This document shows positions 16,015 through 25,026 of a stretch of 33,449 bases of DNA, in pieces. The notes under the pieces were generated by a model. The model worked only from the letters and a program-made list of their open reading frames with translations, ran no database searches and had not been told where the DNA came from. Position numbers and translations under genes: made by a program. Source of the DNA: an uncultured Agathobaculum sp. (GTDB taxonomy: Bacteria > Bacillota > Clostridia > Oscillospirales > Butyricicoccaceae); contig NZ_CALWJK010000024.1 of NCBI RefSeq assembly GCF_944380975.1, positions 1-33,449 of the forward strand. The letters run 5' to 3'. How positions within the stretch are numbered: the first letter of the stretch is position 1; every line of letters starts with the position of its first letter.

Positions 16015-17865
16015 ATGCTGGAAAAGGAAGCAAAAGAACTGTTGGCGCTGGTGGGCGGCAAGGAAAACGTCAACCAGCTGGTGCACTGTGCAACTCGTCT
16101 GCGGTTTGAACTCAAGGACGAGACTCTGGCACAGAAAAAAGAGATTGAAGCAAAGCCCTATGTACTGTCGGTCGTCATCAGCGGTGGACAGTATCAAATC
16201 GTCATCGGTCCCAAAGTGACCGAGTATTTTGCAGCACTCATGCAACTGCTCAATTTGGATGAGAGCAAAAAATCCAACGAAGGTAAACAAAAGCTGTCCC
16301 TGCTCAAGGTTATTTCGGGCGCGTTCTCACCCCTGATTCCGTTGCTGGCCGGCGCAGGCATGATCAAGGCGCTGCTGATGGTACTGGTTGAGTTTGGTCT
16401 GTTGTCGGATGCCAGCTCGACCTACGCCATTCTCTCGGCGGCAGGCAACTCGGTCTTTTATTTCATGCCGATCTTTCTGGGCATTACGCTGTCCAAGCAG
16501 TTCGGCGGCAATATGTATGTCGGCGGCGCAATCGGCGCAGCGTTGCTTGAGCCATCTTTCACCAGTCTGATTGGGCAAGAGGGTGTGAACTTCCTCGGCA
16601 TCAGCGTCGTGCCGGTGGACTACGCTACCACCGTGTTCCCGATTTTCATTATCTCGTTTGTCTATGCTTTTCTGGATAAGCAGCTGCGCAAAATCGTCAA
16701 GCAGGAACTGCAAATGTTCCTCGTGCCGATGATCTGCCTGCTGGTGCTTGTTCCGATGGCCATTCTGGTATTCGGCCCATTCGGCACAACCATTGGCAAC
16801 CTGGTATCGAGCTTTATCTCCATGCTGTTTGATTTCAACAATCTGCTGGCCGGTCTGGTGCTGGGCGCCACCTATCCGTTCCTGACCATCCTTGGCCTGC
16901 ACTGGGGCTTCACTCCTATCACGCTGCAAAACCTGAGCCAGTTCGGCGGCGACGTGCTCGAAGGCGCGGCGGTTTGCTGCGTATACGCAGAGATCGGCAT
17001 TGCCATCGGTGCCTATCTGAAGGGCCGAAAAGGCTCCAAAATCCGTGAAATCGCCGGACCGACCATTCTGACCGGTTTCTTGGCCGGTGTCACCGAACCT
17101 ATTCTGTACGGTATTGTCATGCGCTATAAGCGTCTGATGGCGATTGTCGCTATTGCGGGCGGCATTGGCGGTGCGATCAACGGCCTGTGCCATGTCACAA
17201 TGAACGCTTATGTATTCCACAATCTGTTCTCGGTCGCCATGATGACATACTCGCCGTTTGTTCCCTTCCTCATCGGCTGCGCTGCCGCTCTGGCAGCCGG
17301 TCTGCTGCTGACCTATTTCTGGGGCATTCCGGCGGAAGACAGTGCCGATTTTCAGGCGCCGGACGCTGCGCCGCTGCCGCAACCGCAGCAGACTTCACAG
17401 GAAATGCAACCCATGACTATCGCCGCACCGGCAAACGGCATGGTGATCGCGCTCGAACAGGTCGAGGATGAAGCATTTGCACAAGGCGCAGTCGGCAAGG
17501 GCGCGGCCATCCTACCGGCGGACGACAAAATCTATGCACCGGCTGACGGCCAAATCACCATGGTTTTCCCCACCAAACACGCATTGGGCATGCAGTGTGC
17601 CAATGGCTTAGAGCTTCTCATCCATGTCGGCCTGAACACGGTCGAACTCAAAGGAAAATACTTTACCGTGCATGTCAAGGACGGCGACACCGTTAAAAAA
17701 GGGCAGCTGCTTCTGGAATGTGATATCGAGCAGGTACGACAGGCTGGATATCCGCTCACCACGCCGGTACTGGTCACCAATGCCGACCAGCTTGAGGTTA
17801 CTTGCCTGCCGACACCCGGCACACAGGTCACTGTTGGAGACGCCATGCTGGAGGTGAAGGAATAA
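16015..17865 (+). CDS. bglF: Beta-glucoside-specific PTS transporter, EIIBCA
   Basis: Imports and phosphorylates aryl- or alkyl-beta-glucosides, cellobiose or similar at the membrane. 616 residues in the order B-C-A. EIIB (1-85) has phospho-cysteine Cys25 in VNQLVHCATRLRF. EIIC (about 100-445) has many hydrophobic helices, from LLKVISGAFSPLIPLLAGAG through GATYPFLTILGLHWGFTPI to VTEPILYGIVMRYK. A Pro/Gln-rich linker (about 448-472) precedes EIIA, whose active His537 is in LELLIHVGLNTVELKG. All phosphorelay residues are present. AAAGGAG lies nine bases before the ATG. It is four bases ahead of the phospho-beta-glucosidase gene. Confidence 0.95.
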   Translation: MLEKEAKELLALVGGKENVNQLVHCATRLRFELKDETLAQKKEIEAKPYVLSVVISGGQYQIVIGPKVTEYFAALMQLLNLDESKKSNEGKQKLSLLKVISGAFSPLIPLLAGAGMIKALLMVLVEFGLLSDASSTYAILSAAGNSVFYFMPIFLGITLSKQFGGNMYVGGAIGAALLEPSFTSLIGQEGVNFLGISVVPVDYATTVFPIFIISFVYAFLDKQLRKIVKQELQMFLVPMICLLVLVPMAILVFGPFGTTIGNLVSSFISMLFDFNNLLAGLVLGATYPFLTILGLHWGFTPITLQNLSQFGGDVLEGAAVCCVYAEIGIAIGAYLKGRKGSKIREIAGPTILTGFLAGVTEPILYGIVMRYKRLMAIVAIAGGIGGAINGLCHVTMNAYVFHNLFSVAMMTYSPFVPFLIGCAAALAAGLLLTYFWGIPAEDSADFQAPDAAPLPQPQQTSQEMQPMTIAAPANGMVIALEQVEDEAFAQGAVGKGAAILPADDKIYAPADGQITMVFPTKHALGMQCANGLELLIHVGLNTVELKGKYFTVHVKDGDTVKKGQLLLECDIEQVRQAGYPLTTPVLVTNADQLEVTCLPTPGTQVTVGDAMLEVKE

Positions 17866-19317
<1,452 letters not shown>

Positions 19318-19456: not shown

Positions 19457-20095
19457 TCAATCGGGTGCAGTACCGTCTACCGGTGCAACGCTTTTGATTA
19501 TATCTGACCACAGCTCCTCCTCCAAAGGGACATCCGAAATAATGCAATAGCTATATGCATCATCCTGCCATTCCGCAATGGTATAACCACAATTCGTGTC
19601 GTCATACAACACCGCATGGTTGGAATCCATCGGATATCCACCATCTGTGTGATTATTTCCAATGAGCGCCGCATCCCCTATGCCCATGCAGTACTTGATC
19701 TGCTGCTCTCCATTGGAATAAATCACAACTGCCATGCCAAACTGATTGGCTGCACTTTCAAATACATAGTCATCCGGCAAAACAGTAGGAACCGACAACG
19801 GAAAAGACAAGCTTTCTGCAAGCTGTTTGATCGAGGCATACTCCTGCACCCCGCCAACGGCAACGATGGGCGACTCCAGCGTTCCCTGTCCCCATGGGAT
19901 ATCACTAAGATGGACAATCGTTGTACCGCTGACAACCAATATCAGACAAGCTGCCACTATGCCTGCCACCTTATATCGGCGTACCCGCGCTTGACGAGCC
20001 AAAGAAGCTACAATTTCATTTTGCAAACGGGAAAGCATTTCAGGCGTCACATGGATTTTTTCCATGATCTGATTATATTTCATCATCAAAATCAT
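19457..20095 (-). CDS. Membrane-anchored DUF4367 protein, probable anti-sigma partner
   Basis: Up to 212 residues. A cytoplasmic head of about 40 residues (MEKIHVTPEMLSRLQNEIVA...) precedes one transmembrane helix (about 43-63, VAGIVAACLILVVSGTTIVH). The extracytoplasmic part has the DUF4367 pattern SVPTVLPDDYVFESAANQFG, IYSNGEQQIKYC and DDAYSYCIIS. It overlaps the 3' end of the ECF sigma gene by 23 bases, the usual place of an anti-sigma factor, although I see no zinc-binding HxxxCxxC. The same C-terminal domain occurs in the divergent secreted protein at 20849. The start is uncertain: AGGAGG is only three bases before the ATG at 20095 and 12 before the one at 20086. Confidence 0.82.
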   Translation of the reverse strand: MILMMKYNQIMEKIHVTPEMLSRLQNEIVASLARQARVRRYKVAGIVAACLILVVSGTTIVHLSDIPWGQGTLESPIVAVGGVQEYASIKQLAESLSFPLSVPTVLPDDYVFESAANQFGMAVVIYSNGEQQIKYCMGIGDAALIGNNHTDGGYPMDSNHAVLYDDTNCGYTIAEWQDDAYSYCIISDVPLEEELWSDIIKSVAPVDGTAPD

Positions 20096-20678
20096 ATGCC
20101 TCCTGTAAGATGTCTTTCAGCATCCCGCGGCCGCGATGCAGCAGGGAACGCACGGTTGCTTCCTTCGTCTCCAAAATTCCTGCAATCTCAGCCGTACTGT
20201 AGCCTTCATGGTAAAACAGATGGATCGGCTCACGGTATTTCGGCGGCAATGAACGAACCGCATCCCATACGCAGGCCAGTTCGTCATCCAATTGAGCGCA
20301 GGGATACGCTTCTGTCAGAGCATCCGTCCGCTTGTACCAGACCGAGTTTAATTTGTTCTTGCTCAAGTTGATGGCGACCCGTAAAAGCCACGCTTTTTCA
20401 TGCGCACTGTTTTCAAATATGGGTTCTGCGCGAAGATATTGCACAAACGTATTCTGTAAAACATCCTCGGCATCATCCATATTATGCAGATAAGCGTATG
20501 CAGCGCGCAAGACTGCATCACCATATGTATCAAAAAGATACGATACTTTCTGTTCTGTATATACTTTCGTCTTTTTACCGCTGTGTAAAACCGTCGCCAG
20601 CATATGAACCAGCCGTTTGATTGACGCAAAACAGTTGGGATGCCAATACGGCAATTTGCGTAACATATCGGGATTCAT
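20073..20678 (-). CDS. ECF-type RNA polymerase sigma factor
   Basis: 201 residues. Sigma region 2 (about 45-110) has YGDAVLRAAYAYLHNMDDAEDVLQNTF and KAWLLRVAINLSKN. Region 4 (about 140-195) has LPPKYREPIHLFYHEGYSTAEIAGIL and EATVRSLLHRGR. Regions 1.1 and 3 are absent, as in ECF factors. The ATG at 20678 follows AGGAGG by nine bases; the frame runs on to 20780 but through the promoter. About 40 residues precede region 2, longer than usual. It is co-transcribed with the overlapping DUF4367 gene and preceded by a promoter whose signature also drives the divergent gene, so autoregulation is likely. Confidence 0.92.
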   Translation of the reverse strand: MNPDMLRKLPYWHPNCFASIKRLVHMLATVLHSGKKTKVYTEQKVSYLFDTYGDAVLRAAYAYLHNMDDAEDVLQNTFVQYLRAEPIFENSAHEKAWLLRVAINLSKNKLNSVWYKRTDALTEAYPCAQLDDELACVWDAVRSLPPKYREPIHLFYHEGYSTAEIAGILETKEATVRSLLHRGRGMLKDILQEAYDFDDEI

Positions 20679-20714
20679 TGGAACTATCCTCCTGCATGCA
20701 TTACTTCTATTGTG

Positions 20715-20742
20715 AATACAATTCACACAACGCAAATGTTGC
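20715..20742 (-). promoter_or_regulatory. Putative ECF-sigma promoter of the sigma/anti-sigma pair
   Basis: Minus strand: GCAACA (20742-20737), 14 bases, ATTGTATT (20722-20715). The identical blocks at identical spacing occur on the + strand at 20774. Start would be near 20706, about 28 bases before the sigma ATG. Confidence 0.65.
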
Positions 20743-20773
20743 AGCTGCAAAGAAAAGAAATGAAAAAAATGTC

Positions 20774-20801
20774 GCAACAAATTGAGCCTACTGATTGTAT
20801 T
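20774..20801 (+). promoter_or_regulatory. Putative ECF-sigma promoter of the stalk-domain gene
   Basis: GCAACA (20774-20779), 14 bases, ATTGTATT (20794-20801), a copy of the divergent element at 20715-20742. The intervening bases differ between the two, so conservation is confined to the -35 and -10 positions. The gene's ATG is 48 bases downstream. Confidence 0.65.
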
Positions 20802-20848: not shown

Positions 20849-21754
20849 ATGCGAAAAACGATTTCTTTATTGACAGCAGTAGCCATCGCGGGTCCGATGG
20901 GCATTACCGCAGTAGCCGCTGACGAAAATGAACCGCTGGTGGCTGTCCCCTCCTCTTTGGTGATTGCAGAGACACCGCTGCAAGTGACGGTGAATGGTGA
21001 ATTTGTAACCGCCGATACCTATGTATCCAACGGCGGTATCATGGTTCCTGTTCGCGCGGTTGCAGAAGCACTGGGTTTCCAAGTGACGTGGCATTCTGAC
21101 CAAACACTCAACCTAAACAATGGCGATATGCAATGCGACTTTGCCATCGGACAAAACAACTATATTGTTTATACCGCAAACCCTGATCTGATCGGCATGA
21201 GCGCTCCTTTCGCATTAGAATCCGCACCCGAGCTGAAAGATGCAACAACGTATGTCCCGGTTTCGCTGTTTGTTCCATTGTTCGGCAATGATCCCGCAGC
21301 CGTTTTGATTGAAGAGAACACTGTAAACATCTCACCAGAAGCTGCGTCCGAAGAAGATATCCAAATCCCCTCTCCGCTGACAGAGCATGCTACGCTTACT
21401 GCATTGGAGCAGGCTGTCGGCTTTCCGATTCAAGAACCCGCCATGCCGGACGGCTATACGGCATCCGAATGGACCGATATCAGCCAATCCATAGCACAGA
21501 TTACCTACCAAAACGGCGATCAAGAAATCATCTATCGTGTCAGCAAAGGCACCGACGATATCAGCGGCAGCTACGAGGATTATTCTAACAAATGTACACT
21601 CGAAATAGAAGGGGTAACCGTGCAGCTACGCGGCGAGGAAGCCTTCCATGTCGCGATATGGAATGACAACGGTCTTGCGTATTCGGTGTACGTCCCCGCA
21701 GGTCTGACCACCGCACAGATTTCACAAATCGTAACCAGTACCCTGCAAGCATGA
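20849..21754 (+). CDS. Secreted stalk-domain (copper amine oxidase N-like) protein with DUF4367 domain
   Basis: 301 residues. A Sec signal peptide (1-24, MRKTISLLTAVAIAGPMG, cleavage after AVA) leads to a copper-amine-oxidase-N-like stalk domain (about 45-165). That domain is recognisable from LQVTVNGEFV, GGIMVPVRAVAEALGFQVTW and TTYVPVSLFVPLFG. The C-terminal DUF4367 domain (about 190-300) reads FPIQEPAMPDGYTASEWTD, ITYQNGDQEIIYRVSKG and YVPAGLTTAQISQIV. No catalytic role is known for either domain; they are common in exported proteins of sporulating Bacillota. AAAGGA sits eight bases before the ATG at 20849. It shares its promoter signature and its second domain with the sigma module across the divergent gap, so it is probably a target, or a competing ligand trap, of that system (inference). 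Confidence 0.88.
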   Translation: MRKTISLLTAVAIAGPMGITAVAADENEPLVAVPSSLVIAETPLQVTVNGEFVTADTYVSNGGIMVPVRAVAEALGFQVTWHSDQTLNLNNGDMQCDFAIGQNNYIVYTANPDLIGMSAPFALESAPELKDATTYVPVSLFVPLFGNDPAAVLIEENTVNISPEAASEEDIQIPSPLTEHATLTALEQAVGFPIQEPAMPDGYTASEWTDISQSIAQITYQNGDQEIIYRVSKGTDDISGSYEDYSNKCTLEIEGVTVQLRGEEAFHVAIWNDNGLAYSVYVPAGLTTAQISQIVTSTLQA

Positions 21755-21759
21755 CAAAG

Positions 21760-21795
21760 CAAAATGCGCCTGAGCATATGCTCAGGCGCATTTTG
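21760..21795. terminator. 36-base perfect palindrome acting as bidirectional terminator
   Basis: Positions 21760-21777 are exactly complementary to 21778-21795 (CAAAATGCGCCTGAGCAT and its mirror), so only the tip cannot pair. Flanking A and T tracts suit termination from both sides. It lies between the + stalk-domain gene and the convergent acid-sugar operon. Confidence 0.88.
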
Positions 21796-21857: not shown

Positions 21858-22631
21858 TTATTTTACCAAATAACCGCCATCGACCGGAATCGTCGCGCCG
21901 TTGAGGTAATCCGACGCTGCGGACGCGAGGAACAGCATCGGACCCTTGAGGTCGTCCGGGGTACCCCAGCGGCCAGCAGGGATACGGACCGTGCACTCGT
22001 CCTTGCGTGCCTGTGTCATGTTGGCGCACATTTCCGTATCCATATAGCCCGGGCAAATGCAGTTGATATTGATATTGCGGCCTGCGCAGTCAACCGCGAG
22101 GCTCTTGGTCAGCTGCGAAACCGCACCCTTAGAGGCGGTGTAAGCCGGTACGGTCGTACCGCCGAACCAGATGACCATCGAACCGATCGTGATGATCTTG
22201 CCGCCGGTCGGCTGCTTGAGCATGATGCGCAGCGCCTTCTGGATCATCAGGAACACGGCATTGAGGTTGATGTTGAGCACCAGATCCCACTCCTCTACTG
22301 GGAACTCCTCGGGCAGGTGGCGACGCTGTACGCCAGCCGCAGGAATCAGGATATCCAGTTTGCCATCCAGAATCTCCATCGCCTTGTCGAAGATGGTGTC
22401 AATCTGTGCACGGTCAGCCAGATTGCCGCATACACCGTACGCTTCATAGCCCATCTTGCGGTATTCTTCGCAGACTGCCTCCAATTTCTCCTGCTGAATG
22501 TCGATCAGCACAACTTTGCAGCCGTTTTCGAGCAGACCTTCCGCCATGCCGCGAGACAAGCCCTGCGCGCCGCCGGTGACGATCGCGTGCTTGCCTGAAA
22601 CATCAAACATTGTTTTGTAATCGTATGCCAT
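21858..22631 (-). CDS. Short-chain dehydrogenase, gluconate/mannonate/2-deoxygluconate dehydrogenase type
   Basis: 257-residue classical SDR. The cofactor motif is TGGAQGLSRGMAEGL (slightly altered TGxxxGxG), then the active-site serine in ITIGSMVIWFGG and YTASKGA with the catalytic Tyr-x-x-x-Lys, and the C-terminal NGATIPVDGGYLV. Close relatives include KduD, gluconate 5-dehydrogenase and the Bacillus-type D-mannonate oxidoreductase; the last would fit the operon. AAGGAG at 22646-22641 selects the ATG at 22631 over the TTG at 22637. Last gene of the acid-sugar operon. Confidence 0.9.
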   Translation of the reverse strand: MAYDYKTMFDVSGKHAIVTGGAQGLSRGMAEGLLENGCKVVLIDIQQEKLEAVCEEYRKMGYEAYGVCGNLADRAQIDTIFDKAMEILDGKLDILIPAAGVQRRHLPEEFPVEEWDLVLNINLNAVFLMIQKALRIMLKQPTGGKIITIGSMVIWFGGTTVPAYTASKGAVSQLTKSLAVDCAGRNININCICPGYMDTEMCANMTQARKDECTVRIPAGRWGTPDDLKGPMLFLASAASDYLNGATIPVDGGYLVK

Positions 22632-22667
22632 TTTCAAACGCTCCTTCTCAATTTATAGTACGGAAAC

Positions 22668-23711
22668 TTATTCATCAAACAGAATGACCATCTTTTTGGA
22701 CTCCGCACAGGGGTGATCCATGTAGTAAAACACCTTTTCGATCTGGCTGAACGGAATAAACATGGTAGCAATGCCCTCGGTGTTAAACTCCTTTTTCTTC
22801 ATGCGCTCAATGGTGGGCTCAAACTGATAGCAGGACATCCGCGAGCCGATCACGTCCAGCTCACGCTGGTTAATCATAGCCTGCGTAATTTCTTCCTTAG
22901 CTGTCGAGAAGCCCATCGGCACCATGCGGCCCGCGTTGCACAGGATGCCCGGCTGCATGCACATGGTCAAAGAGCCAGGGAAGCAGGCGGAATCAAACGC
23001 AACCGTGACGCCATGGCCTTCGGTGATTTCAGAGATGCGAAGCAGCACATCTTCCGTTTTGGAATTGATGACGTAGTCTGCACCGTATTCCTTGGCGCGT
23101 GCCAGAGAAGCATCGTCAATATCACAGCAGATGACCGTCTTGCACCCCTTAGCCTTGCAGGTCTGCAAGATGATCGAGCCGATCGTACCCGTGCCGAGGA
23201 TAAACACCGTATCCTCGGGTACGATACGCGCACGGGCTGTGCAATGCGCACCGATCGCATACGGCTCAACCAGCGCCGCATCCTTCCAGTCTACGCTGTC
23301 GTCGATCTTGTACACCTCGGAGGCCGGAGCGGTGAAATACTCACGCCAGCCGCCATCCGCACCGGAGCCACGCACCGAAACATGCTCGCACACATTCTTG
23401 CGGCCGATGCTGCACTGATAGCAAGTGCCGCAGGTATGGATCAGGTCTACAATGACATGATCACCCACCTTGACATTCTTAACGTTCGCGCCGACCTTGG
23501 CGATTACGCCCGCATTCTCATGGCCGGGAATACGCGGATAGGTCGAGCAGGGGTTGAGGCCATGATAAATGTGATGGTCACTGCCACAGACACCAGCCGA
23601 CTTCATTTGGATGAGCACCTCATCCTCGTTCTGCAGTTCAGGCACCGGCACCTCACGCACTTCAAACTTGTGCGGCTCCGGAATTACGACACAGCGCATG
23701 GTTTCTTTCAT
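22668..23711 (-). CDS. Zinc-dependent alcohol dehydrogenase (RspB / L-gulonate 5-dehydrogenase / L-idonate dehydrogenase type)
   Basis: 347-residue medium-chain dehydrogenase. Catalytic zinc ligands lie in GVCGSDHHIYHG and GHENAG. The structural zinc cysteines are in HTCGTCYQCSIGRKNVC, and the NAD-binding turn reads FILGTGTIGSIILQTCKAKG. In related operons with a ManD/RspA-type dehydratase such enzymes oxidise the C5 hydroxyl of a hexonate, for example L-gulonate to D-fructuronate. AAGGAG stands nine bases before the ATG. It lies between dctM and the SDR gene; the two dehydrogenases together could epimerise a sugar acid at C5. Confidence 0.9.
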   Translation of the reverse strand: MKETMRCVVIPEPHKFEVREVPVPELQNEDEVLIQMKSAGVCGSDHHIYHGLNPCSTYPRIPGHENAGVIAKVGANVKNVKVGDHVIVDLIHTCGTCYQCSIGRKNVCEHVSVRGSGADGGWREYFTAPASEVYKIDDSVDWKDAALVEPYAIGAHCTARARIVPEDTVFILGTGTIGSIILQTCKAKGCKTVICCDIDDASLARAKEYGADYVINSKTEDVLLRISEITEGHGVTVAFDSACFPGSLTMCMQPGILCNAGRMVPMGFSTAKEEITQAMINQRELDVIGSRMSCYQFEPTIERMKKKEFNTEGIATMFIPFSQIEKVFYYMDHPCAESKKMVILFDE

Positions 23712-23742
23712 TATTCATTACTCCTTTTATGTGAACATGCCA

Positions 23743-25026
23743 TCAGGCAATCAGGTTAGGCAGGAAGGTGGACAGGGCAGGAATCATCGCAAACAGAATG
23801 CCACAGCCGATCTCTACCAGAACGAATGGCAGAACCTGTTTGGAAATGCCGCCGACTGTGCGACCGCTCAACCCGCAGGACACGAACAGGCAAGTGCCGA
23901 AAGGCGGTGTCGCCTGTCCCATCGCCAGCAAGAATACGAACACCAGGCCGAACCGAATCGGATCAATGCCGAATGCTACCGCAATCGGGGCAAGGATCGG
24001 AGCGAGGATCAGGTTGGTTGCGCCAACCTCAAGGAACATGCCGCAGATACACAGAAGCACGATGACGATCGCCCAGAACATAGCTACGCTCGACACATCC
24101 GAAACCATGACCTCAGTGACAAACTGCGGAATCTGATAGTAAGAGATCAGCCAGCCGAACATCTGTGCAGTAACGACCAAAATCATCAGGTTAGATGTGC
24201 CGACCGCCGTGGTCTTGATGATCGACCAAACGCTCTTGAGTGTGATCTCCCGGTAGATCGCAAGGCATACGATCACACCGTATACAACCGCGACAACCGC
24301 AGACTCGGTCGGGGTGAAAATGCCGGCATAGATGCCGCCCAGAATGATGATCGGCATGATCAGCGCCCAAATCGCGTCCTTAAACGACATCAGGAAACGC
24401 TTGAACGAAAAGTGATCCGCCTTGGGAAAGTTGCTGCGCTTTGCCTTGATGAATGCCCACAGGCACAGAAATACGCAGCAGATAATGCCGGGAATCATGC
24501 CCGCCATCAGCAGTTCACCGACCGGCACGCCGGTGATATTGCCATAAATGACCATGACAATGCTAGGCGGGATAACGATGCCCAACGTGCCGCCGATCGC
24601 CTGCACCGCCGCGGCATAATCCTCTGGATAGCCGCGCTTGACCATTTCGGGATACATCAGGCCGCCGATGGCCGCAGTCGTTGCGACTGAGGAGCCGGAG
24701 ATCGCAGCAAAAAAGGTACATGCGACAATGGAAACAAGCGAAATACCGCCTGAAATCCAGCCGACCAGCGAGTCCGCAAACGCGACCAAACGCTTTGACA
24801 GGCCGCCTTTACTCATTACATCACCAGCCAGCATAAACGCTGGAATTGCCAGCATAGAGAAACTGTTGGAATTTGCGAAAATACGCTGCGCCAGCACGAC
24901 AAACGTCAGTTTGGGGTCAAGCAGTACAGCCACAGCGCAGGCCAGACCCAGCGACCAGCTGATCTCCAGACCAAGCGCCATCGCAACAATCAGAACAACT
25001 ATCAACGCAACAGCTGCTGTTTCCAT
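23743..25026 (-). CDS. dctM: TRAP transporter large permease (DctM)
   Basis: The 427-residue, 11- to 12-helix ion-coupled subunit of a tripartite ATP-independent transporter. It starts with the typical hydrophobic VALIVVLIVAMALGLEISWS, followed by FSMLAIPAFMLAGDVMSKGG, IVIPPSIVMVIYG and GIYAGIFTPTESAVVAV, all DctM signatures. Length is normal. The ATG at 25026 follows AAGGAGG with an 11-base gap. It pairs with the DctP and DctQ genes just upstream, and the catabolic dehydrogenases follow. Confidence 0.95.
   Translation of the reverse strand: METAAVALIVVLIVAMALGLEISWSLGLACAVAVLLDPKLTFVVLAQRIFANSNSFSMLAIPAFMLAGDVMSKGGLSKRLVAFADSLVGWISGGISLVSIVACTFFAAISGSSVATTAAIGGLMYPEMVKRGYPEDYAAAVQAIGGTLGIVIPPSIVMVIYGNITGVPVGELLMAGMIPGIICCVFLCLWAFIKAKRSNFPKADHFSFKRFLMSFKDAIWALIMPIIILGGIYAGIFTPTESAVVAVVYGVIVCLAIYREITLKSVWSIIKTTAVGTSNLMILVVTAQMFGWLISYYQIPQFVTEVMVSDVSSVAMFWAIVIVLLCICGMFLEVGATNLILAPILAPIAVAFGIDPIRFGLVFVFLLAMGQATPPFGTCLFVSCGLSGRTVGGISKQVLPFVLVEIGCGILFAMIPALSTFLPNLIA

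Follow-up and report, generated by a model that had tools for sequence, protein, structure and literature searches.

An ECF sigma factor gene and a divergently transcribed gene for a secreted protein are separated by a short gap in which the same promoter-like sequence occurs once on each strand. The question raised by this locus is which RNA polymerase holoenzyme, if any, reads the two copies. The stretch of DNA analysed here, hereafter the window, comprises 33,449 nucleotides of an uncultured Agathobaculum sp. (contig NZ_CALWJK010000024.1, positions 1 to 33,449). A preliminary description had read the pair as an autoregulated ECF promoter together with the promoter of its main target. From sequence comparison, we consider with a probability of roughly 0.8 that the ECF sigma factor encoded at 20678-20073 directs transcription from both sites, within a proposed feedback cycle of sigma factor, anti-sigma factor and secreted protein.

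The features of the locus are the following.

20073..20678, minus strand: ECF sigma factor with regions 2 and 4 (Pfam Sigma70_r2, Sigma70_r4_2; NCBIfam sigma70-ECF; start ATG 20678)
19457..20095, minus strand: likely anti-sigma factor, its gene overlapping the sigma gene (Pfam DUF4367; predicted model; gene order kept in relatives)
20849..21754, plus strand: secreted protein with a Cu_amine_oxidN1 'stalk' domain and a C-terminal domain related to the outer domain of the anti-sigma factor (Pfam; BLASTP; profile comparison)
20716..20743, minus strand: putative promoter of the sigma gene, TGCAACA-N15-TTGTAT from -35 to -10 (exact core; top genome match, at E = 0.003, of a 22-promoter profile built without the window)
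20773..20800, plus strand: putative promoter of the secreted stalk/DUF4367-like gene, CGCAACA-N15-TTGTAT (exact core; second in the genome with a profile including the window)
21766..21789, no strand assigned: perfect inverted repeat 3' of the secreted gene, followed by T-rich sequence (read from the sequence), likely a transcription terminator

The genes and the two sites of the gap

The sigma factor scores 65.3 bits against the NCBIfam sigma70-ECF model (cut-off 42.9). Sigma70_r2 and Sigma70_r4/r4_2 are the only sigma domains found in it by Pfam, with no region 3, and a search of solved structures with its profile returned ECF sigma factors. The likely anti-sigma factor matches Pfam DUF4367 (PF14285) at 22.5 bits for a cut-off of 22.1, and is laid out as a short cytoplasmic N-terminus of about 40 residues, one membrane helix recognized by eye and an outer DUF4367 domain; no zinc-finger anti-sigma domain was found in it by Pfam. 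A predicted model built from 8 aligned sequences has a mean pLDDT of 68.5. Within the outer domain (residues 82-206) most of the model is confident, apart from a drop around 141-170, and pLDDT is below 50 over residues 35-81, which cover the membrane helix and linker; the helices drawn at 2-13 and 18-61 are of low confidence. The DUF4367 profile returned nothing from the solved structures at E up to 1.

For the secreted protein, reading of the ribosome-binding site makes ATG 20849 a more likely start than 20840. The protein aligns with the anti-sigma factor by BLASTP at E = 2e-6 in a single comparison. It has no Pfam DUF4367 match of its own, and its link to DUF4367 runs via the comparison with the anti-sigma factor and with relatives. 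As to the surroundings, window positions 16015-19317 encode a PTS transporter (EIIBCA) and a family 1 glycosidase, and positions 21858-25026 a short-chain dehydrogenase, a zinc alcohol dehydrogenase and a DctM transporter. The closest ortholog of the sigma factor, from the nearest kin (genome G020; L013 / L050), is 96-97% identical over the last 77 residues and is cut off within the sigma gene where its contig stops; the sequence there looks unrelated.

The two matching sites had been described as copies of GCAACA-N14-ATTGTATT, one per strand at 20742-20715 (minus) and 20774-20801 (plus), and both copies are indeed exact. Four further matches in the window each have 3 mismatches. A scan of the whole assembly (2,344,046 bases, or 2.34 Mb, in 88 contigs and 91% complete), as proposed with the pattern, gave 2 exact copies, both in the gap. 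No copy has a single mismatch and 24 have two. In the same genome, the pattern reversed as a control reached 5 matches at two mismatches or fewer, so that the real two-mismatch tail is larger.

This pattern had been picked by eye and the chance test was therefore run on a pair in any form, that is, a 6-base and an 8-base block of any sequence, occurring on both strands at disjoint places with an equal spacer of 10-20. When the gap was shuffled 60,000 times with a first-order Markov model, 12 shuffles held such a pair, and the tiles of the real window holding one (7/3,329) all lay over the gap. An earlier version that also counted hairpins (801/40,000 shuffles; 131/1,665 tiles) was discarded and replaced by this disjoint-pair test. 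It is scarcely credible that the likeness is accidental and that both genes are transcribed from ordinary sigma-A promoters. The post hoc definition of the pattern from the two sites themselves and the 24 two-mismatch matches speak for an accident, but the rarity of comparable pairs in the shuffles and the retention of the motif in all 35 orthologous loci described below speak against it. Moreover, a search of the gap for a sigma-A or sigma-70-type promoter gave no match, in agreement with the non-sigma-A signature initially attributed to it.

The -10 elements end 37 and 48 bases before the gene starts (ATG 20678 and ATG 20849, respectively), and the plus-strand site begins with CGCAACA instead of TGCAACA. 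Two palindromes overlap the minus-strand site, at 20711-20727 (TGTGAAT-TGT-ATTCACA) and 20739-20750 (TTGCAGCTGCAA). Together with the divergent orientation of the two copies, they could suggest that the pair is the operator of a DNA-binding regulator and not a sigma factor promoter. This is very improbable, since relatives carry one copy per operon with a fixed 15-base spacing, usually 25-75 bases before the start, and neither palindrome is seen in their aligned promoters. The palindromes lying over the sigma promoter are probably due to chance.

A candidate promoter code that follows the sigma clade

The genus, family, order and class all contain orthologs of the sigma factor, and so do named genomes such as [Clostridium] aerotolerans DSM 5434 and Butyrivibrio proteoclasticus P6B7. 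With a threshold of E <= 1e-50, 13 of 394 genomes of the order and 23 of 391 genomes of the class have the sigma factor, the window's genome being counted in both. These scans yielded 35 loci outside the window after removal of the duplicates (L055 = L012, L056 = L041), and the promoters of the relatives gave a refined motif, TGCAACA-N15-YTGTAT. Two letters of the pattern first proposed, its last T and the A that precedes TTGTAT, were not kept in relatives.

In 35/35 loci the refined motif precedes the sigma gene or the operon containing it, at two mismatches or fewer (21 exact, 12 with one and 2 with two). It lies within 1.5 kb in 30 of them and farther up, before a long first gene, in the other 5, and the spacer between the blocks is 15 bases in every case. 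In addition, AAC is present in the -35 element of 24/24 aligned promoters, and the -10 element has TGT, not CGT, in the same 24/24; CGT at this position was met only in the sister locus L042. The CGCAACA variant of the plus-strand site also precedes the sigma operon in L065 and L088, and L049 carries a deviating form with TGTTT and a spacer of 16 bases. Upstream DNA was too short to judge the motif in L048 and L050. The divergent gap itself was sought in the other 24 genomes of the genus and found in none, only in the window. Conservation in orthologous gaps, as anticipated in the preliminary description, therefore holds for the promoter before the sigma gene or operon but not for the gap.

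Sister ECF loci were used as controls. None of the 31 carries the motif at one mismatch or fewer, and 6/31 do at two mismatches; among these controls L014 and L021 have short upstream DNA. Markov-shuffled upstream stretches reached one mismatch in 1/370 and 1/310 cases. In a tree built without L067, L014 and L021, 39 sigma rows fall on one side of a branch (support 97/89) and 29 sister rows on the opposite side, the root being a midpoint root only. The genome of the window contains nine ECF-like matches, so that another sigma factor of the same cell could read the sites, with little or no part for the local one. In the same way, two sister ECF genes of the genus (L015, L018) are preceded by a similar yet different element, TGCAACC...TTTGTAGC. 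Recognition by such a paralog is nevertheless quite improbable, as the motif follows the clade of the local sigma factor and the sister loci lack it at one mismatch or fewer.

The specificity of the refined motif was also examined at the genome scale. The exact form occurs at 71 sites in 26 sigma-bearing genomes, 19 of which have at least one, for a single match of the reversed control; these 26 were drawn from 35 sigma-bearing genomes, nine with weaker sigma scores having been left out. In 26 genomes without the sigma factor at the thresholds used, only 4 sites were found, in 4 genomes (control 1), and 3 of these sit inside long open frames. Exact copies were absent from 400 kb of background sequence of two genomes that use the motif. 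An abundance of the motif at random positions, which would have weakened the preliminary description, was consequently not observed.

The window's genome contains three copies of GCAACA-N15-YTGTAT, namely both gap sites and one that overlaps the start of a coding frame. The profile of 22 promoters from other genomes ranks the minus-strand site first (E = 0.003), and the plus-strand site was not returned at E <= 10 (150 of 657 first-look candidates scored). With a profile including both window sites, the minus-strand site comes first (E = 4.5e-5, 24.5 bits) and the plus-strand site second (E = 0.08, 14.3 bits). The plus-strand site is weaker than the minus-strand one.

These scores leave room for an explanation in which only the minus-strand site is a working promoter, the plus-strand site having decayed or arisen by chance and the secreted gene being transcribed otherwise. 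This is unlikely. The GCAACA-N15-TTGTAT core of the plus-strand site is exact and its distance from the start suits a promoter, its CGCAACA beginning recurs at the two sigma operons already mentioned, and homologous secreted genes of relatives sit directly behind the motif. As the profile built without the window misses the site, the case for the candidate plus-strand promoter is made by its core, by where it lies and by the presence of the motif before homologous secreted genes elsewhere. No further convincing site was found in the window's genome, and the regulon may here consist of just these two promoters.

Secreted partners and a predicted lipoprotein regulon in one genus

In relatives the usual order is promoter, secreted protein, sigma factor and anti-sigma factor; in the window the secreted gene is divergent and a promoter copy stands on each side. 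By our own reading of 30 loci outside the genus g225, the motif precedes a secreted protein or lipoprotein gene followed by the sigma gene in 22 and lies directly before the sigma gene in 6, with 2 unclear (L085, L088). It also stands directly before the sigma gene in 7/8 loci of g225. In L072 the sigma gene comes directly behind the motif, and the promoter of L046 is exact. Among the first genes of these operons are those for stalk proteins whose C-terminus is DUF4367 or DUF4367-like, for VWA/YfbK lipoproteins, for one S-layer-homology protein and, in [C.] aerotolerans, for a DUF4367-like lipoprotein. The first-gene lipoprotein of Butyrivibrio resembles DUF4349, by eye only. In family f52 (L223-L226), the first gene of the sigma operon encodes a VWA/YfbK lipoprotein according to a Pfam scan of L225.

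A profile was built from the C-terminal parts of 16 secreted first-gene products, that of the window included. Searched against 21 sequences, the anti-sigma factors recovered by motif search from 40 loci, it matched 19 at E < 1e-7, and it matched the window's own anti-sigma factor at E = 6.5e-13. Judged by their sequences, the secreted protein and the outer domain of the anti-sigma factor are homologous. The matches to 19 of the 21 anti-sigma factors make a domain common to the secreted product and the sensor a recurrent trait of this gene set.

The genus g225 belongs to another family of the class. Exact sites number 54 in six of its sigma-bearing genomes; in the g225 genome G591, the sigma factor is present and an exact site absent. 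Forty-eight sites do not lie directly before a sigma gene, one of them leading a lipoprotein-sigma operon, and for 38 of the 48 the gene behind the site passes a strict lipobox test, versus 14 of 331 background genes (Fisher p = 3e-31). A looser test gave 40/48 versus 32/331. The lipobox test is a simple self-made pattern and not a trained predictor, and the background, which replaces a smaller set (7/29), consists of 331 genes from 400 kb of sequence taken from two of the six genomes. The gene start lies 25-58 bases after the -10 element in 41/48 sites.

A scan of 39 g225 genomes, taken irrespective of the presence of the sigma factor and including 3 of the six, found 229 sites in total against 3 for the reversed control, with 4-20 sites in 25 genomes and none in 14. 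In four unused g225 genomes, 23/36 non-sigma sites pass the strict lipobox test (Fisher p = 4e-18), and 10 of the 13 targets that fail it begin with a hydrophobic stretch, by eye. This held-out set comprises all sites of G814, G838 and G826 and two of G829; one of its 40 regions (L305) repeats the site of another and adds no new one. The target regions of the genus are L125-L172 and L274-L313.

Some predicted targets recur. DUF4349 proteins were identified in L125, L170 and L177, and by similarity in L139, L144, L150 and L159; among the papers covered by the literature search, none names DUF4349 together with a sigma factor. A TIR-domain protein that has a beta-propeller-like part (L133, from 321 on the plus strand, with TIR_2 and ThsB_TIR matches) recurs as well among the predicted targets, and L280 holds a look-alike, by eye. 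An extension of the common sensor domain to the lipoproteins of the wide regulon was also considered and rejected, as 12 queries, with 11 anti-sigma factors recovered, gave only two weak matches (E 0.0015 and 0.0043).

The proposed circuit and known systems

The reading of the gap as an autoregulated ECF promoter facing the promoter of its main target is supported by a motif that is rare at random and kept before the orthologous sigma gene or operon. An autoregulated ECF sigma factor with a defined clostridial promoter thus appears to be a well supported interpretation. The sequences themselves show the pair of motifs and their conservation, the linkage of the genes and the common domain; to these the proposed cycle adds steps that we infer, namely recognition of the sites by the sigma factor, the action of the anti-sigma factor, the signal and the feedback. 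The membrane anti-sigma factor (20095-19457) would keep the sigma factor inactive via its short cytoplasmic N-terminus, until an outside signal sensed by the DUF4367 domain sets it free. RNA polymerase with the sigma factor would then read TGCAACA-N15-YTGTAT on both strands of the gap. Reading of the minus strand would provide more sigma and anti-sigma factor, that is, autoregulation, and reading of the plus strand the secreted stalk/DUF4367-like protein. Since it carries a relative of the sensor domain of the anti-sigma factor, the secreted protein probably binds the same ligand or surface, and could in this manner close the feedback loop.

A broader proposal can be put forward tentatively, with somewhat less than even confidence: a clostridial ECF clade with its own code, TGCAACA-N15-YTGTAT, may govern lipid-anchored and secreted surface proteins, its circuit producing a secreted copy of the sensor domain as a decoy or feedback part, and may have grown into a genome-wide lipoprotein regulon in one genus. 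An autoregulated ECF promoter is of a known kind. What goes beyond routine is the promoter code, the divergent second copy, the common sensor domain and above all the lipoprotein regulon.

SigW and SigM of Bacillus subtilis are examples of autoregulated ECF sigma factors whose membrane anti-sigma factor is co-encoded. Hallmarks of such systems, according to one account (PMC8103513), are AAC in the -35 and CGT in the -10 element, a co-transcribed anti-sigma factor and autoregulation. The present system is similar in having regions 2 and 4 only, an overlapping anti-sigma gene, AAC in the -35 element and a putative promoter of its own before the sigma operon. It differs from what is described there by its YTGTAT -10 element instead of a CGT-type one and the strict 15-base spacing of TGCAACA and YTGTAT, by an anti-sigma factor whose cytoplasmic part is very short and whose outer domain is DUF4367, and by a secreted partner with the domain of the sensor. 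A GC-rich -10 motif has been described for ECF sigma factors in another paper (PMC3397946), versus TGTAT here. With respect to the anti-sigma factor, a further study set aside possible class II anti-sigma factors at a cytoplasmic part of < 50 residues (PMC7406223). The one described here resembles, by description only, the class II anti-sigma factor CnrY of Cupriavidus metallidurans as presented in that study, with a cytoplasmic part of < 50 residues and no zinc-finger domain; unlike CnrY, its outer domain is DUF4367, and the helices predicted in its N-terminus are of low model confidence.

ECF promoter codes in Clostridia are poorly known. A 2020 start-site study of C. difficile gives the consensus for its three ECF sigma factors as still to be identified (PMC7438776). 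A published tool is reported to have predicted targets for nearly 70% of known ECFs (PMC8103513), and the motif of this clade may thus already stand in its output. No description of this sigma clade or system was met among the matches listed in the literature search, most subscription literature being outside its scope. The present analysis offers a testable promoter code for one sigma clade across several families, and a regulon prediction consisting mainly of lipoproteins in one genus.

In the SigI/RsgI systems of cellulolytic clostridia, the outer domain of RsgI resembles a domain found in the target products, and SigI is not known to be an ECF sigma factor. The principle, a sensor-type domain that recurs in a proposed target product, is the same in the locus described here, with an ECF sigma factor and a DUF4367-like domain. 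A target sharing the domain of the sensor is put forward as a candidate feedback design.
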